From a bacterium (lineage in GTDB: Bacteria; JAJVIF01; JAGGVT01), in contig JAGGVT010000214.1 of the NCBI GenBank assembly GCA_021157815.1, positions 1 to 10,050 of the forward strand: a DNA stretch of 10,050 bases, written 5' to 3'. The notes under the pieces are model-generated. The model saw only the letters and a program-made list of their open reading frames with translations, searched no databases and was not told the DNA's origin. Shown here piece after piece: positions 403 through 10,036 of this stretch. The translations under genes and the position numbers were made by a program. The stretch's first letter is position 1. Each line of letters opens with the position of its first letter.

Positions 403-921
403 TCAATCATATTCAGCGCCATCAACCATCAAGCCTTTATCATACCGTTTATCAGTACCATATAAGCCTTTGCGGACATAATTTTGATAGCTCGAATGTT
501 CCCATTCATTCGGCGTTGTAACGTACCCATGCTTTACGGGATTAAAATTTACATAATCAACACATCGGCTGTAATCATCTTCATCCCTGACAGTGTGTTC
601 CCAGAATCGCGGATGCCAGTTCTTTTCACGCAGCTTTTGATAACCTCCTCGCTTATATTCCAGATTAAAGCCTCGTTTAAACGATGAAACCACTTTCGAG
701 TAATCCGCTTTATTGGGTTTGATTACCCAGTGGATGTGGTCCGGGAGTATAACCCATGCCTTGAATACGATCACATGATTTTCCTGGACTCGTTTCATCT
801 CAGATAATGCGATATCTCGGATATTCTTCGATGCGAACATCTTGTGCCTTCGATATGTAACCATCGTTAGAAAGAATATGGTATCTGTTGTGGCTGGTTT
901 GTTTCGGCGGTATTCGACCAT
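403..921 (-). CDS. REP-associated tyrosine transposase (RAYT, Y1_Tnp/IS200-like)
   Basis: A 172-residue protein of the single-domain HUH Y1 transposase fold. The N-terminus carries the usual hydrophobic strand and T-x-x-T-Y-R-R segment (FFLTMVTYRR, residues 16-25). The metal-binding HUH pair is seen as D61-H62-I63-H64-W65, and the RAYT signature WHPRFWEHTVRDEDD lies at about 102-116. The probable nucleophile is Y123 in the segment DYVNFNPVKHGYV (122-134), matching the Y-x-x-x-N-P pattern of RAYTs. Length is within the usual 150-220 range, and no frameshift or missing motif is seen, so the protein may be functional. The ATG at 919-921 is preceded by AGGAA at about 16 bases, a rather distant ribosome site. 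The gene is flanked by REPs on both sides. RAYTs are known to cut and rejoin single-stranded REP DNA; action on the repeats here is inferred from their position. Confidence 0.9.
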   Translation of the reverse strand: MVEYRRNKPATTDTIFFLTMVTYRRHKMFASKNIRDIALSEMKRVQENHVIVFKAWVILPDHIHWVIKPNKADYSKVVSSFKRGFNLEYKRGGYQKLREKNWHPRFWEHTVRDEDDYSRCVDYVNFNPVKHGYVTTPNEWEHSSYQNYVRKGLYGTDKRYDKGLMVDGAEYD

Positions 922-3989: not shown

Positions 3990-4253
3990 ATGGATAAACA
4001 GGAATCGCATAACAACACAACGCTCAAACTGAGTGAATTGAAACCCGGTGATCGATGCAAGGTACTGAAGATATCCGGGAAAGGCTCCATTATACGAAGG
4101 ATTTTCGATATTGGAGTTCGATCCGGAGCTGAAATTCTCGTTGAGCGAGTCGCCCCCCTGGGTGATCCTGTGGAATTCAAACTTGAAGGATTCCACCTGT
4201 CACTGCGTAAAGAGGAAGCCGAAAATATCATTGTCGAGGTCATTTCCAGTTGA
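3990..4253 (+). CDS. feoA: FeoA family ferrous iron transport protein
   Basis: An 87-residue small cytoplasmic protein with the FeoA SH3-like fold. After a short polar N-terminus it reads LKLSELKPGDRCKVLKISGK, then IRRIFDIGVRSGAEILVERVAPLGDPVEFKLEG, and ends HLSLRKEEAENIIVEV. These are the hallmark segments of the family. FeoA is known to associate with FeoB and support Fe(II) uptake. I chose the ATG at 3990. A TTG at 3981 is in frame, but it abuts the TATAAT box and would lie upstream of the expected transcript start. No Shine-Dalgarno is suitably placed for the ATG, which fits leaderless translation. The stop overlaps the feoB start (TTGA, 4250-4253), so the two genes are translationally coupled. 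Confidence 0.9.
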   Translation: MDKQESHNNTTLKLSELKPGDRCKVLKISGKGSIIRRIFDIGVRSGAEILVERVAPLGDPVEFKLEGFHLSLRKEEAENIIVEVISS

Positions 4254-6409
4254 ACCTGAAAGCAAACAATAAATCAAATACGGACAAAAAAGACAGCGAA
4301 AGAAAGAAGATCGTTGTCGCTGTCGCGGGGAATCCCAATTCCGGCAAAACGACTCTTTTCAACGGCATCACCGGAAGTTCCCAACGAGTCGGCAATTATC
4401 CGGGCGTTACGGTCGAGAAAAAAACCGGACACCGTATCTATAAGAACTACAACATCACTTTCGTTGACCTTCCCGGAACCTATTCACTCAGCGCCTATTC
4501 ACTTGAGGAGATGGTGGCGAGGGATTATATCCTGTCAGAAAAACCTGATGTTGTCGTTGATGTAATCGACAGCTCCAATCTTGAAAGAAACCTCTATCTG
4601 GCATCCCAGATTCTTGAGCTGGATGTCCCAATGATAATGGCGTTGAACATGACCGATGAGGTTAGGAAACTTGGAATCAGAATAGATATCGAACTGCTGA
4701 CGCAGCTGCTGGCATCTCCCGCGGTTGAAACTGTCGCATCGCGCGAAATAGGTTTGACAGATCTTCTAGATACAATTATTGAGGTGGTTGAAAACTCCAC
4801 TGTTACCAATGTGAATATCAACTACGGCGAGGAGATGGAAAAAGCGATAACGGAACTGATTCCACTTATCGAAAAAAACGAGGTTCTCTCGAAAAAGTAT
4901 CCTTCCAGATGGACAGCGTTGAAACTGCTTGAGAATGATCCGGAAATAACCAGGATGGCTGAGGAAGACTCTCAGATTGTTGAACTTGCCGATAATCAGC
5001 GAAAGCGAATTGAGAAACGCCTTGGTGATGACACTGAACTTTACATCGCCGACCGCAGATACGGCTTTGTAAATGGCATATGCAAAGAGACTGTCCAGAC
5101 TGTCCATAAATCGCGAAAAGACGTTACGGAGAAAATTGATACAGTTTTAGCTAATCGAGTATTGGGCCTGCCGATTTTCCTTTTCATGATGTGGGCAACA
5201 TTCCAGCTGACTTTCACACTCGGCGTATACCCAATGGATTGGCTGGATGCCGGTTTTGGTTATCTTGGCGATTTCCTTTCCAGTGTAATGCCTGAGGGAC
5301 ATTTTCAATCGCTAATCGTGGATGGAATAATCGGTGGCGTTGGCGGTGTTTTGATTTTCCTTCCGAACATACTTCTGCTGTTTCTGGCAATCGCGTTTCT
5401 TGAGGATACCGGCTACATGGCGCGAGCAGCGTTTATCATGGATAAAGTCATGCACTCTATCGGACTGCATGGTAAATCGTTTATGCCGATGCTGATCGGG
5501 TTTGGATGCTCTGTTCCGGCTATCATGGCGACACGCGGACTTGAAAATGAAAAAGACCGACTGACCACGATGCTGATAATTCCACTGATGAGCTGCGGGG
5601 CGAAACTTCCGGTCTATGTTCTTCTCGCCGGAGCTTTTTTCCCTGAGCAGGCGGGAAATATTATTTTTCTGATTTATATTTTCGGGATTCTGCTGGCAAT
5701 CTTTGTCGCCATGCTGCTTAAGAAATTCTATTTTCATGGTCCCGGAACACCGTTTGTAATGGAACTTCCACCCTACCGCGTTCCCACATTAAAATCAGTG
5801 CTGCTTCACATGTGGCGTCGAGCAGTTATGTATCTGCAAAAAGCGGGAACAATCATTCTTGCCGCAAGTGTTGTTGTTTGGTTTATAACCACATTCCCAC
5901 CGCCGTGGGCATCATCGCAAAACGAGAATGCAATCCCGACACAGGGAAATATGATAAGTGAAAATGTTGAGCAGGCGGATATCGAATTGCAAACAGCCTC
6001 GGATAAAATCTCAAACTCAATGGCAGGACATCTGGGACGATTCATCGAACCTGTAATCAAGCCAATCGGATTCGACTGGAAAACGGGAATCGCGCTGATT
6101 ACCGGATTCGCCGCTAAAGAGGTTGTGGTATCGACGCTGGGTACGGTTTACGCGCTGGGTGAAACTGATGAGGAGTCGGTTGAACTAAAGGACGCATTGA
6201 AAAGAGATCCGCATTTCACTCCTCTTGTGGCGTTCTGCCTGATGATATTCACTCTTATTTATGTCCCCTGCATGGCAGCAATGGCTGTTTTATACAGGGA
6301 GTCAGGCTCCATGAAATGGACATGGTTCACAATCGGATATACGACACTCCTTGCATGGATTGTAACGTTTATCATCTACCAGGGCGGGATGCTGCTTAAT
6401 GTTAGCTGA
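4250..6409 (+). CDS. feoB: Ferrous iron transporter FeoB (GTPase-coupled)
   Basis: A 719-residue protein, full length for the family, that imports Fe(II) across the cytoplasmic membrane. The N-terminal G domain shows G1 GNPNSGKT (27-34), G2 around T54 (GVTVEKKTG), G3 DLPG (73-76), G4 NMTD (133-136) and G5 around ASRE (163-166). A helical spacer domain follows (~190-290). Hydrophobic segments start near residue 304. They include the two pore Gate motifs, GFGCSVPAI with C420 and SCGAKLPVY with C449. A later part reads GFAAKEVVVSTLGTVY, and the protein ends with an IYQGG-type terminus. A polar loop of ~35 residues (about 552-588) separates two late membrane segments. The start is TTG at 4250: no ATG or GTG occurs before the G1 motif, and GAGGT (4236-4240) lies 9 bases upstream. 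No FeoC gene follows; the next DNA is a large inverted-repeat element. Confidence 0.97.
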   Translation: MNLKANNKSNTDKKDSERKKIVVAVAGNPNSGKTTLFNGITGSSQRVGNYPGVTVEKKTGHRIYKNYNITFVDLPGTYSLSAYSLEEMVARDYILSEKPDVVVDVIDSSNLERNLYLASQILELDVPMIMALNMTDEVRKLGIRIDIELLTQLLASPAVETVASREIGLTDLLDTIIEVVENSTVTNVNINYGEEMEKAITELIPLIEKNEVLSKKYPSRWTALKLLENDPEITRMAEEDSQIVELADNQRKRIEKRLGDDTELYIADRRYGFVNGICKETVQTVHKSRKDVTEKIDTVLANRVLGLPIFLFMMWATFQLTFTLGVYPMDWLDAGFGYLGDFLSSVMPEGHFQSLIVDGIIGGVGGVLIFLPNILLLFLAIAFLEDTGYMARAAFIMDKVMHSIGLHGKSFMPMLIGFGCSVPAIMATRGLENEKDRLTTMLIIPLMSCGAKLPVYVLLAGAFFPEQAGNIIFLIYIFGILLAIFVAMLLKKFYFHGPGTPFVMELPPYRVPTLKSVLLHMWRRAVMYLQKAGTIILAASVVVWFITTFPPPWASSQNENAIPTQGNMISENVEQADIELQTASDKISNSMAGHLGRFIEPVIKPIGFDWKTGIALITGFAAKEVVVSTLGTVYALGETDEESVELKDALKRDPHFTPLVAFCLMIFTLIYVPCMAAMAVLYRESGSMKWTWFTIGYTTLLAWIVTFIIYQGGMLLNVS

Positions 6410-6429
6410 TGATTCATCATGGGAGCGCC

Positions 6430-6840
6430 GGAATCCTGTTGCTGTTGAAAAAGCGCTAATGTAGGAGCGAACCTTGTGTTCGCCCAGAAGGTTAGGCATA
6501 AATACAGGGCGACCCACTAGTGGGTGTATACAAGGAATCTGTCTCAGAACATCTTCATCATGGGTATTTTTCACTTATTGAGCAGATTCCGTCATTCCCG
6601 CGAAAGCGGGAATCCATTTTTTCTTTTAGCGGAATTAACAATCAATCAGTGAAACCCGTATTGTTAGTCTATTCACAGAACTCCTTATTTATTGTGATTA
6701 TTTCATCATCCAATACAATGGATTCCCGCTTTCGCGGGAATGACGGATGATGTTAGTTTGGATGATGTTCTGAGACAGTTTCCAAGGTTCGCCCCTACGG
6801 TTTGCGCCCGAAGAGGGTTTTTCAACAACCCCAGGATTCC
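6430..6840. repeat. 411-bp nested inverted-repeat (MITE-like) element downstream of feoB
   Basis: Four arm pairs are nested in order. The outermost is 6430-6452 with 6818-6840 (20 of 23 complementary). Next come 6461-6475 with 6784-6798 (14 of 15) and 6534-6556 with 6761-6783 (21 of 23, core CTGTCTCAGAACATC). The innermost is 6588-6618 with 6717-6747 (31 of 31). The left side has 58 unmatched bases (6476-6533) that include the palindrome ACCCACTAGTGGGT (6512-6525). The right-hand counterpart is continuous (6783/6784). No transposase or credible gene lies within it. It begins 20 bases after the feoB stop and may serve as its 3' end. A non-autonomous mobile element, or repeats stacked by successive insertions, would explain it. 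Confidence 0.8.
6461..6485 (+). repeat. GTAG-footed hairpin in the left arm of the nested element
   Basis: GTAG (6461-6464) is followed by GAGCGAAC (6465-6472), which pairs with GTTCGCCC (6478-6485) with one mismatch around a CTTGT loop. The right arm keeps only the matching half (6784-6798). The foot and layout resemble the hairpin at 1680-1705. Confidence 0.5.
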
Positions 6841-7087
6841 AGTACCCCCGGGAAAAAATCCATTTTTTTTTGCATTTACCCATTTACACCCTTTAACTAT
6901 GTGGTAAAATCAGATTGAAGTAATTGGCCTTCAGTAGTTAGATCCCTTCCCAGGCAAATCGCCATCTATCCCGGAGATTCACTTAACACCGAAAAGCAAT
7001 TTCAAAGTCTGGGTAATGTGAATAATTAAAGTAATGCAAAAACGGTTTGCTTTGTGTCGATAAAATATATGTATTGTTTAGTGATAA
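6841..7087 (+). other. Gene-free stretch with one promoter-like site
   Basis: I see no supported gene or structured RNA here. The only signals are a CCCGGG plus T-rich patch near 6845-6872 and a promoter-like pair, TTTACA (6883-6888) and TGG-TAAAAT (6902-6910), with 16 bases between the hexamers. That is more than 400 bases ahead of the first pseudopilin gene, so a long leader or a small RNA would have to be assumed. I treat it as unproven. Confidence 0.3.
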
Positions 7088-7170
7088 ATTTACGCATTAC
7101 CCCGGTGAGGGGACACCGGGTTACATGAACATTTACGCATTACCCCGGTGAGGGGACACCGGGTTACATG
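7088..7170 (-). repeat. Two identical 40-bp GTAA-footed REP units in direct repeat
   Basis: Bases 7088-7127 and 7131-7170 are identical over 40 positions, with AAC between them. Each holds a 7-bp perfect hairpin (CCCGGTG at 7101-7107 with CACCGGG at 7114-7120, loop AGGGGA), followed by TTACATG. On the minus strand this is GTAA and then CCCGG, the same foot and first stem bases as the REPs beside the RAYT gene, but with a different inner stem and loop. The perfect identity implies recent duplication. They lie ~150 bases upstream of the pseudopilin operon. Confidence 0.85.
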
Positions 7171-7270: not shown

Positions 7271-7318
7271 AATGAATTATACCTATCATACAATTCATAA
7301 CATAGGACGGTGTTTGAC

Positions 7319-8359
7319 ATGAAAAGATTCAGACTCCGTGGGTTCAGGCATGAAAGTGGCTTTACCATGGTTGAGGTACTTGTCGTTGTGGCGATTATAG
7401 GAATTCTCGTTGCAACCACAGTCCCGACATACCTTAAAAACAGGCCACAAAGAATGCTCACTGCGACCACTAATCTTCTTATGGCTAATTTCAACTCCGC
7501 GAGAGTTCTGGCAATCCAAAACAATCAGAATGTTTACATGGAGTTCATTCCTGAGGTTGACACATTCAGGATATGGGATTATGTCGGATGGCAGCGGTAT
7601 TATTCCGTATATTCGACATCGTCACCCTATTCAACCCCGGCAACACTCCTGCCGTACTCAATCTCCCCAGTGAGATCATACAGCCCGTTGATGCATGTCA
7701 ACATCTATTCCGGTGTACCGACAATCTGGCGTAATCTTGGTTCGGAACGAGCGATTGGGTCCGAAAAAACCATTCCGCTGGAGGTTGACATCAGGATGAA
7801 TCCGAACACGTGCGCGGATCAGGACATTAACGAATCAGCGCTGACAGCGCGCCCATACGGAAATGGCATTCCTGACAGGATGAGGCACTTAAGCCGCATA
7901 CCGCTTTTATACCTGACATTCCATCCTGACGGTTCAGTGTCCAACTCGTGGGCGTATCCCTGCAATTCGATTGCAACTGAAAAGTTCGCTCCTTCCGTGG
8001 GACGGCATCTCGGAGCTACTGAGATTTTCCTGCAGGTTCGCGGTGACATGAATCCGATGCTTGCGAACAACTACAAATCGGACTACGACCGGATACCAAT
8101 TAAAGGCATTTTCCCGAACCAGAGCCTTCCAACGATGTATTATGAAAACGGCTCGCCAAGGCAGCTGGGCGGCAACGAGTGGGAAATCAAGGATGGCGCA
8201 ATGTCTGATTCCAACGGCAGGCGAATCATTATCAACAACTCTACCGGACGAATAGTTGTTGAGAACTGGGCGCCGTACAACATCGATGTTCCCCTTGTCG
8301 AGGGTGATGAGGGATTCAGCCCGGATACCGGTAAAATAGGCCGTAAACACTGGTTATAA
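7319..8359 (+). CDS. GspH/FimT-like prepilin with N-terminal cleavage/methylation motif
   Basis: A 346-residue class III signal protein. The short basic leader (1-14, ending ESG) is followed by the prepilin peptidase site G14/F15 and the FTMVEVLVVVAIIGILVATTVP helix. The invariant glutamate is E19 (Glu5 of the mature form). The family is GspH/FimT-like: FHPDGSV (201-207) and the C-terminal RRIIINNSTGRIVVE (301-315) match that domain's closing strands. It is much longer than usual (GspH is ~150-200 residues), the extra length lying between the helix and residue ~200 and again at ~225-290. It probably packs as a minor pseudopilin at the tip of a type II secretion or type IV pilus machine. The ATG at 7319 was preferred to a GTG at 7310 because AGGA (7304-7307) would be only 2 bases from the GTG. 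A second prepilin gene follows after 56 bases. Confidence 0.85.
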   Translation: MKRFRLRGFRHESGFTMVEVLVVVAIIGILVATTVPTYLKNRPQRMLTATTNLLMANFNSARVLAIQNNQNVYMEFIPEVDTFRIWDYVGWQRYYSVYSTSSPYSTPATLLPYSISPVRSYSPLMHVNIYSGVPTIWRNLGSERAIGSEKTIPLEVDIRMNPNTCADQDINESALTARPYGNGIPDRMRHLSRIPLLYLTFHPDGSVSNSWAYPCNSIATEKFAPSVGRHLGATEIFLQVRGDMNPMLANNYKSDYDRIPIKGIFPNQSLPTMYYENGSPRQLGGNEWEIKDGAMSDSNGRRIIINNSTGRIVVENWAPYNIDVPLVEGDEGFSPDTGKIGRKHWL

Positions 8360-9917: not shown

Positions 9918-10036
9918 ATTCCGGGTCAAGCCCGGAATGACAATAGTTTGTCATTCCGGCGAAAGCCGGAATCCATTTTTTGATTTAGGTGGATGTCGGA
10001 CTAAAAGAAATGGGTCCCGGCTTTCGCCGGAATGAC
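9918..10036. repeat. Cluster of three GTCATTC-type hairpin repeats
   Basis: Copy 1 (9918-9941, minus sense) has stem ATTCCGGG with CCCGGAAT around TCAAG. Copy 2 (9950-9976, plus sense) has stem ATTCCGGC with GCCGGAAT around a GAAA loop. Copy 3 (10010-10036, minus sense) is the inverse of copy 2 with 25 of 27 positions matching. Copies 2 and 3 face each other across 33 bases. They follow the second pseudopilin gene, and no further gene is seen before the window ends. The bases 9844-9917 hold nothing recognisable. Confidence 0.8.

Follow-up and report, generated by a model that had tools for sequence, protein, structure and literature searches.

Nested mobile repeats, probably inserted at hairpin tips, form a long palindrome downstream of feoB in a bacterial draft genome

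The 411-bp palindrome between feoB (4250-6409) and a pilin-like gene (7310-8359) is very probably a stack of independent mobile repeats, nested at hairpin tips by transposases that would read a hairpin or palindrome. Separate repeat families, empty sites, target duplications, insertion on the loop, and disjoint target classes are all established by the sequence comparisons. The window, the whole stretch of DNA analyzed here (10,050 bp), is one entire contig (C85) of a 3.2-Mb draft genome (221 contigs, 91% complete), whose contig ends fall within repeats of the kinds described here.

Results

Nested arms drawn from genome-wide repeat families

An earlier note on this DNA, made from the sequence alone, described four nested, non-coding pairs of arms, and the search for inverted pairs recovered all four (Table 1). 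No plausible gene was found inside the 411-bp stretch, and no Rfam family matched it. The palindrome is not a product of chance because its arms are members of genome-wide families and the strand folds 12.6 standard deviations below its shuffled versions. The genome holds 160 exact matches to GGCTGTTGAAAAA (A TIR), 50 to CTGTCTCAGAAC, and 56 copies of the 24-bp REP of the innermost layer (C) with no more than 2 mismatches; as controls, the three patterns in reverse gave 0 matches.

Table 1. Features of the nested stretch, in window positions
Feature	Position	Strand	Identity or basis
Inverted pair 1, outermost	6421-6452/6818-6849		78%; 23-bp core of the earlier note starts at 6430
Inverted pair 2	6461-6476/6783-6798		94%
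Inverted pair 3	6534-6556/6761-6783		91%
Inverted pair 4, innermost	6588-6618/6717-6747		31 nt, 100%
Left arm of outermost target hairpin (GGGAGCGCCGGAATCCT), flank of A	6421..6437	+	pairs with 6833-6840
Element A, MITE, TIRs GTTGCTGTTGAAAAAG / ..TTTTTCAACAACCCC, split by B	6438..6832	+	uninterrupted relatives, TIR family
Left GTAG-tagged REP hairpin of A, GTAGGAGCGAACCTTGTGTTCGCCC, intact	6461..6485	+	conserved in A alignment
Right GTAG-tagged REP of A (GGGTGTATACAAG...CAAGGTTCGCCCCTAC), loop split by B	6522..6798	-	
CAAG target-site duplication of B, left copy	6531..6534	+	
Element B, 248-bp MITE, TIRs GAATCTGTCTCAGAAC / GTTCTGAGACAGTTTC	6535..6782	+	CAAG borders, related elements
C, inverted pair of CGTC-tagged REPs, REPIN-like, cargo of B	6588..6747	.	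31 nt, 100%
Left REP of C: CGTC tag, stem ATTCCCGC / GCGGGAAT, loop GAAA	6590..6616	+	
Right REP of C, inverted copy	6719..6745	-	
CAAG target-site duplication of B, right copy	6783..6786	+	
Right arm of outermost target hairpin (AGGATTCC)	6833..6840	+	sequence, inverted pairing

A genome search with positions 6400-6870 returned one full-length place and 97 partial matches, a number that includes arms of the palindrome matching one another; the matches were broken at fixed points. At many places in the genome, positions 42-136 of the query were joined directly to positions 384-433, which is element A without an insert. The earlier note had offered the palindrome as one non-autonomous element, uncharacterised and about 400 bp long, which would move as a unit; the overall length of the palindrome, its TIR-like outer arms, and its strong fold would all suit such an element. 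We hold this to be highly improbable, since the copy search that the note proposed found each layer alone (A without B, and B outside A) and no second full-length copy in the genome, the best partial match being 197 bp, and since B has its own target-site duplication within A.

Element A and the outermost hairpin

Element A is a MITE: short, non-coding, multicopy, and bounded by TIRs (GGGGCTGTTGAAAAAG), with about 160 exact TIR matches in the 3.2-Mb genome. Copies were sampled around matches rather than listed exhaustively; within this sample, A occurs in 131-, 142-, 190-, and 210-bp classes, 67 copies have both TIRs, and 40 of these show a target-site duplication of at least 4 bp. Its cargo is an inverted pair of GTAG-tagged REPs separated by a short spacer. 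The window copy measures about 147 bp when B is left out.

The outermost layer of the palindrome consists of half-arms of a GGAGCGCCGG-type target hairpin with A between them. The outer 23-bp arm reported earlier is real but composite, being made of the target-hairpin arms plus the TIR of A, and the 23-bp and 15-bp arms, which had been counted as separate layers, are both present but both involve element A. A GGAGCGCTGG-type flank, as on the left of the window copy, also lies beside A at two other loci (L028 and L128). The window copy has no direct target duplication, and its flanks are mirrored, a configuration that could also stem from a deletion between two A copies. Four further A copies have mirrored flanks and no direct duplication (L119 203-332, L126 204-334, L068 2673-2803, and L095 211-400), as if two A's in one REP pair had recombined and the middle had been deleted.

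The two sides of A are unequal around B. The left side has, in order, the latter half of the left REP, the spacer, and the initial half of the right REP. The right side starts directly with CAAGGTTCGCCCCTAC. The 58 extra bases, read earlier as a later insertion or deletion, turn out to be internal sequence of A itself: with B in the loop of the right-hand REP, the spacer and half-REPs stand on the left only. Uninterrupted A copies have GGGCGAACACAAGGTTCGCCCCTAC at this REP.

Element B, its empty site, and the REP pair that it carries

Element B has TIRs (GAAACTGTCTCAGAAC) and target-site duplications, as expected of a MITE, and 17 of the 33 sampled copies show a duplication of at least 4 bp. 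The CAAG that is double around B in the window is single in uninterrupted A copies. The empty site is seen in the alignment of at least five such copies, which run ..CCACTAGTGGGCGAACACAAGGTTCGCCCCTAC.. through the place of the window's 248 extra bases. Two B relatives (L002, 84% over 197 bp; L013, 94% over 70 bp) hold the same kind of REP as the window copy.

That REP belongs to the CGTC-tagged type, reading CGTC-ATTCCCGC-GAAA-GCGGGAAT-CCA at 6590-6616, with the head, the AT-starting stem, the 4-5 bp loop, and the CCA tail. Two such REPs in inverted orientation, in many copies, give C a REPIN-like structure. At other loci, GAAA-type loops like that of its left REP hold insertions of A.

The order of events in the window would be outer palindrome, then A, then B. 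Element A lies between the arms of the GGAGCGCCGG-type palindrome, and the loop of its right-hand GTAG REP was then invaded by B, with duplication of CAAG. B probably already carried C on arrival, because both relatives hold B-type ends with the same REP.

Insertion at hairpin tips

Six loci, the window among them, have B in an A-type hairpin loop (the others are L005, L007, L017, L018, and L092), and nine loci have A inside B. The nesting is thus neither unique nor coincidental, as it would be if the layers occurred only independently of one another. The second reading of the earlier note, repeats that landed symmetrically inside one another, holds as to the landing and fails where it implies accident: the landing of B in the A-type loop is directed, because B sits in the same A-type hairpin loop in five other copies.

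Sites of both elements were scored for stems in the flanks. Among A junctions, 47 of 67 had a flank stem score of at least 7, compared with 8.4% of positions picked at random within the same loci, which are rich in repeats, and 30 of 50 remained at this score after identical junctions were collapsed. The first loci had been fetched by similarity to a query holding both A and C; the tests were therefore repeated on loci chosen by the A or B TIR alone. Hairpin tips held 24 of 33 A copies in loci chosen only by the A TIR (p 3e-19), and in loci chosen only by the B TIR, 11 of 19 B copies had a stem score of at least 6 versus 16.7% of random positions (p 6e-5). Typical A sites, with slashes at the insert, are TTCCCGC-GAAA/A/GAAA-GCGGGAA, where the tetraloop itself is duplicated, and GCGGGC-ATCCT/A/ATCCT-GCCTGC. 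Typical B sites are GTAGGGGCGAAC-CTTG/B/CTTG-TGTTCGCCC and GTAGCCCGGTTT-CTCAT/B/CTCAT-TAACCGGG.

The two elements also differ in the class of hairpin that they enter. Under the same rules, CGTC and GTAG target stems were counted at 32:0 for A and 0:27 for B, and at 15:0 and 0:14 in the TIR-chosen loci (p 1e-8); the class rules for targets and cargo were set after the data had been seen, and p-values are for this reason descriptive. For about half of the A copies the target does not fall under the CGTC rule; many of these targets are hairpins of other kinds. Cargo pairs divided between GTAG and GTCAT at 47:7 for A and 5:27 for B, and of the B copies assigned GTAG cargo, at least four contain an A insert (L077, L091, L093, and L094). 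No pair of A-in-CGTC copies shared homologous outer flanks on both sides, so these are not copies of one composite.

Nesting might instead arise without any choice of target, from MITEs entering intergenic DNA that is crowded with repeats. The surroundings are indeed repeat rich, and the score of a hairpin tip is reached at 8-17% of random positions within them as well. The junctions, however, lie on the loop itself at frequencies several-fold above this repeat-rich control, and the hairpin classes used by A and B are disjoint, so that we consider undirected nesting very unlikely.

A function selected by the host, namely a large bidirectional terminator or an mRNA-stabilising hairpin downstream of feoB, would fit the position right after that gene and the predicted RNA fold (-183 kcal/mol, z -12.6). 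As the main explanation it is very unlikely, because the same elements recur at tens of unrelated loci and because drift in one arm of A's right REP (GGGTGTATACAAG) shows that pairing is under no strict constraint. Any terminator or stabiliser function of the stack would be secondary.

Transposase partners

The earlier note suggested looking for a transposase gene bordered by the outer arm, and one was found in decayed form: at C90:4771-5765, a broken transposase is bounded by A TIRs. Its pieces match the NCBIfam IS1182 model NF033551 at 112 and 71 bits, below the cut-off of 270 bits for that family, and also match Pfam DDE_Tnp_1 and DDE_Tnp_1_6. A second relic, on contig C56, is 94% identical, and its homology begins within the A TIR; both copies are decayed. 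An intact A transposase with GGGGCTGTTGAAAAA ends was not found in this genome, nor a close one in other genomes. A transposase for B was not found either, B ends being at none of the four DDE_Tnp_1 loci detected in this 91% complete genome.

Two candidate partners were rejected on their ends. An IS1380-type fragment (L055) has ends that differ from the TIR of B, and an apparently intact IS5/IS1182-like insertion sequence (L052 1005-2276), at which contig C155 ends, has the TIR GGTACCGTTGCAAAA and is not a partner of A. A further repeat of ~200 bp (CGCTTCAATAAACTGTGTGGGTTATTTGCACCCC..) was observed in L053 from about 1811, in L040 at about 680-900, and in L022 at about 760-1000; it is located within REP pairs of the C type and cuts short an IS1182 relic.

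The genome also encodes nine Y1_Tnp genes. The one in the window (403-921, minus strand) is a REP-associated tyrosine transposase (RAYT; NF047646, 133 bits against a cut-off of 80). On either side, at 361-390 and 943-1107, it has GTAA/GTAG-CCCGGGG hairpins of its own, which belong to a different REP family from those of A, B, and C. This gene, the number of its relatives, and the REP pairs carried by A and B would be compatible with RAYT-driven REPIN movement of all layers, with the TIR shells as long REPIN flanks. Such a course of events is very unlikely, given that the relic enclosed by A TIRs is of a DDE (IS1182-type) transposase, that target duplications of 4-5 bp are in keeping with DDE transposition, and that no RAYT locus has A, B, or C families adjoining the gene; the REP of C was absent beside all nine Y1_Tnp genes. 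Target duplications of this length are not known from IS200/IS605-type enzymes.

Other repeats were noted in passing. At about 7090-7170 of the window lie two near-identical tandem copies of CATTTACGCATTACCCCGGTGAGGGGACACCGGGTTACATG, a hairpin similar to those beside two RAYT loci elsewhere (L047 and L048). At 9950-10036, near the contig end, lies an uninterrupted inverted pair of GTCATTCCGGCGAAAGCCGGAATCC, a GTCATTCC-type REP pair. One Y1_Tnp gene (L049, about 1400-2050) lies between the arms of a perfect terminal inverted repeat of 37 bp (ACACATCACGTCTTTTTGTGATTTGTGGGTGAAATGC), an arrangement similar to that of TIR-flanked tyrosine transposases described previously (PMC3733652).

Occurrence in related genomes

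The A end is repeated in two genomes of the same class, G001 (16) and G003 (10); the other relatives searched have it once or not at all. B and the REP of C are practically absent from the three same-class genomes. In G001 and G003 the A TIR shell surrounds different GTAG-tagged REP pairs and has short duplications (e.g., TGGAA and TTCCA), so that the genome studied here is not alone in having a GTAG REP pair inside an A shell. The preference for hairpin tips is weaker there, with clear hairpin flanks at about 5 of 15 A insertions. The A-in-C junction had no match in named genomes, and no orthologous feoB-downstream locus without the stack was found in the genomes searched, where FeoB was at most about 51% identical.

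Discussion

The stack downstream of feoB points to DDE transposases that would act in trans on MITE ends and choose palindromic or cruciform targets. The hairpin might be read as a cruciform, as a single-stranded stem-loop, or simply as palindromic sequence, with cleavage at the tip. An element that enters a palindrome at its centre leaves a longer palindrome, and because the product stays palindromic, repeated insertions would produce nested symmetry. For this reason the nest resembles a single element made by design. Long nested palindromes could in this way be explained without a large new element, by hairpin-tip transposition that preserves symmetry at each step.

A and B, as two unrelated MITE families, may further constitute a reciprocal docking system, A entering CGTC-type REP loops with GTAG-type REPs as cargo and B entering GTAG-type REP loops with GTCAT/CGTC-type REPs as cargo. 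Each would spread the landing sites of the other, with self-reinforcing alternating nests and transposases that recognise hairpin tips rather than one sequence; we rate this proposal as equally likely to be right or wrong. Alternating nests are what would be expected, since A usually carries the target type of B and B usually that of A. The findings suggest that REPs inside MITEs serve as landing pads for other MITEs and that CGTC REPs, which are said to lack a dedicated transposase, may spread as passengers. From the split between target and cargo follows a clear prediction for other genomes that are rich in REPs. In the open-licence literature, we found no description of MITE families that carry each other's docking hairpins.

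REPINs and RAYTs have been described, and insertion into REPINs has been mentioned as well (PMC3116915). C and the cargo of A resemble REPINs in being inverted REP doublets, and the window holds a RAYT with its own REPs; unlike in that system, the REPs of C and of the A cargo flank no RAYT gene at any of the nine loci, and TIR/TSD transposition appears to be how the nested copies move. REP superfamilies with GTAG and CGTC tags are also known, no dedicated transposase being reported for the latter (PMC3733652). The hairpins of A begin with GTAG as in the former, and C has the CGTC, the AT-starting stem, the 4-bp loop, and the CCA tail of the latter, but the hairpins here travel inside DDE-type MITE shells. 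The IS1182 family and its MITEs (NF033551) are matched by the transposase pieces between A TIRs and by the 4-5 bp duplications; the copies differ in being all decayed and below the curated cut-off, and the MITEs share TIRs only and no internal sequence.

The closest parallel in targeting is with insertion sequences specific to REPs, namely ISPsy8, ISPa11, ISPpu9, ISPpu10, ISRm22, ISRm19, IS1397, and IS621, with ISNm1106 partly specific, from the IS3, IS110, IS4, IS256, and IS5 families (Tobes and Pareja 2006, PMC1525189). Like these, A and B are DNA transposons that prefer REPs and have palindromic target sites. Unlike them, the inserts described here are non-coding MITEs that are themselves carriers of REPs, and A is IS1182-like, a family absent from that list, so that IS1182-type MITEs can be added to the REP-targeting elements.
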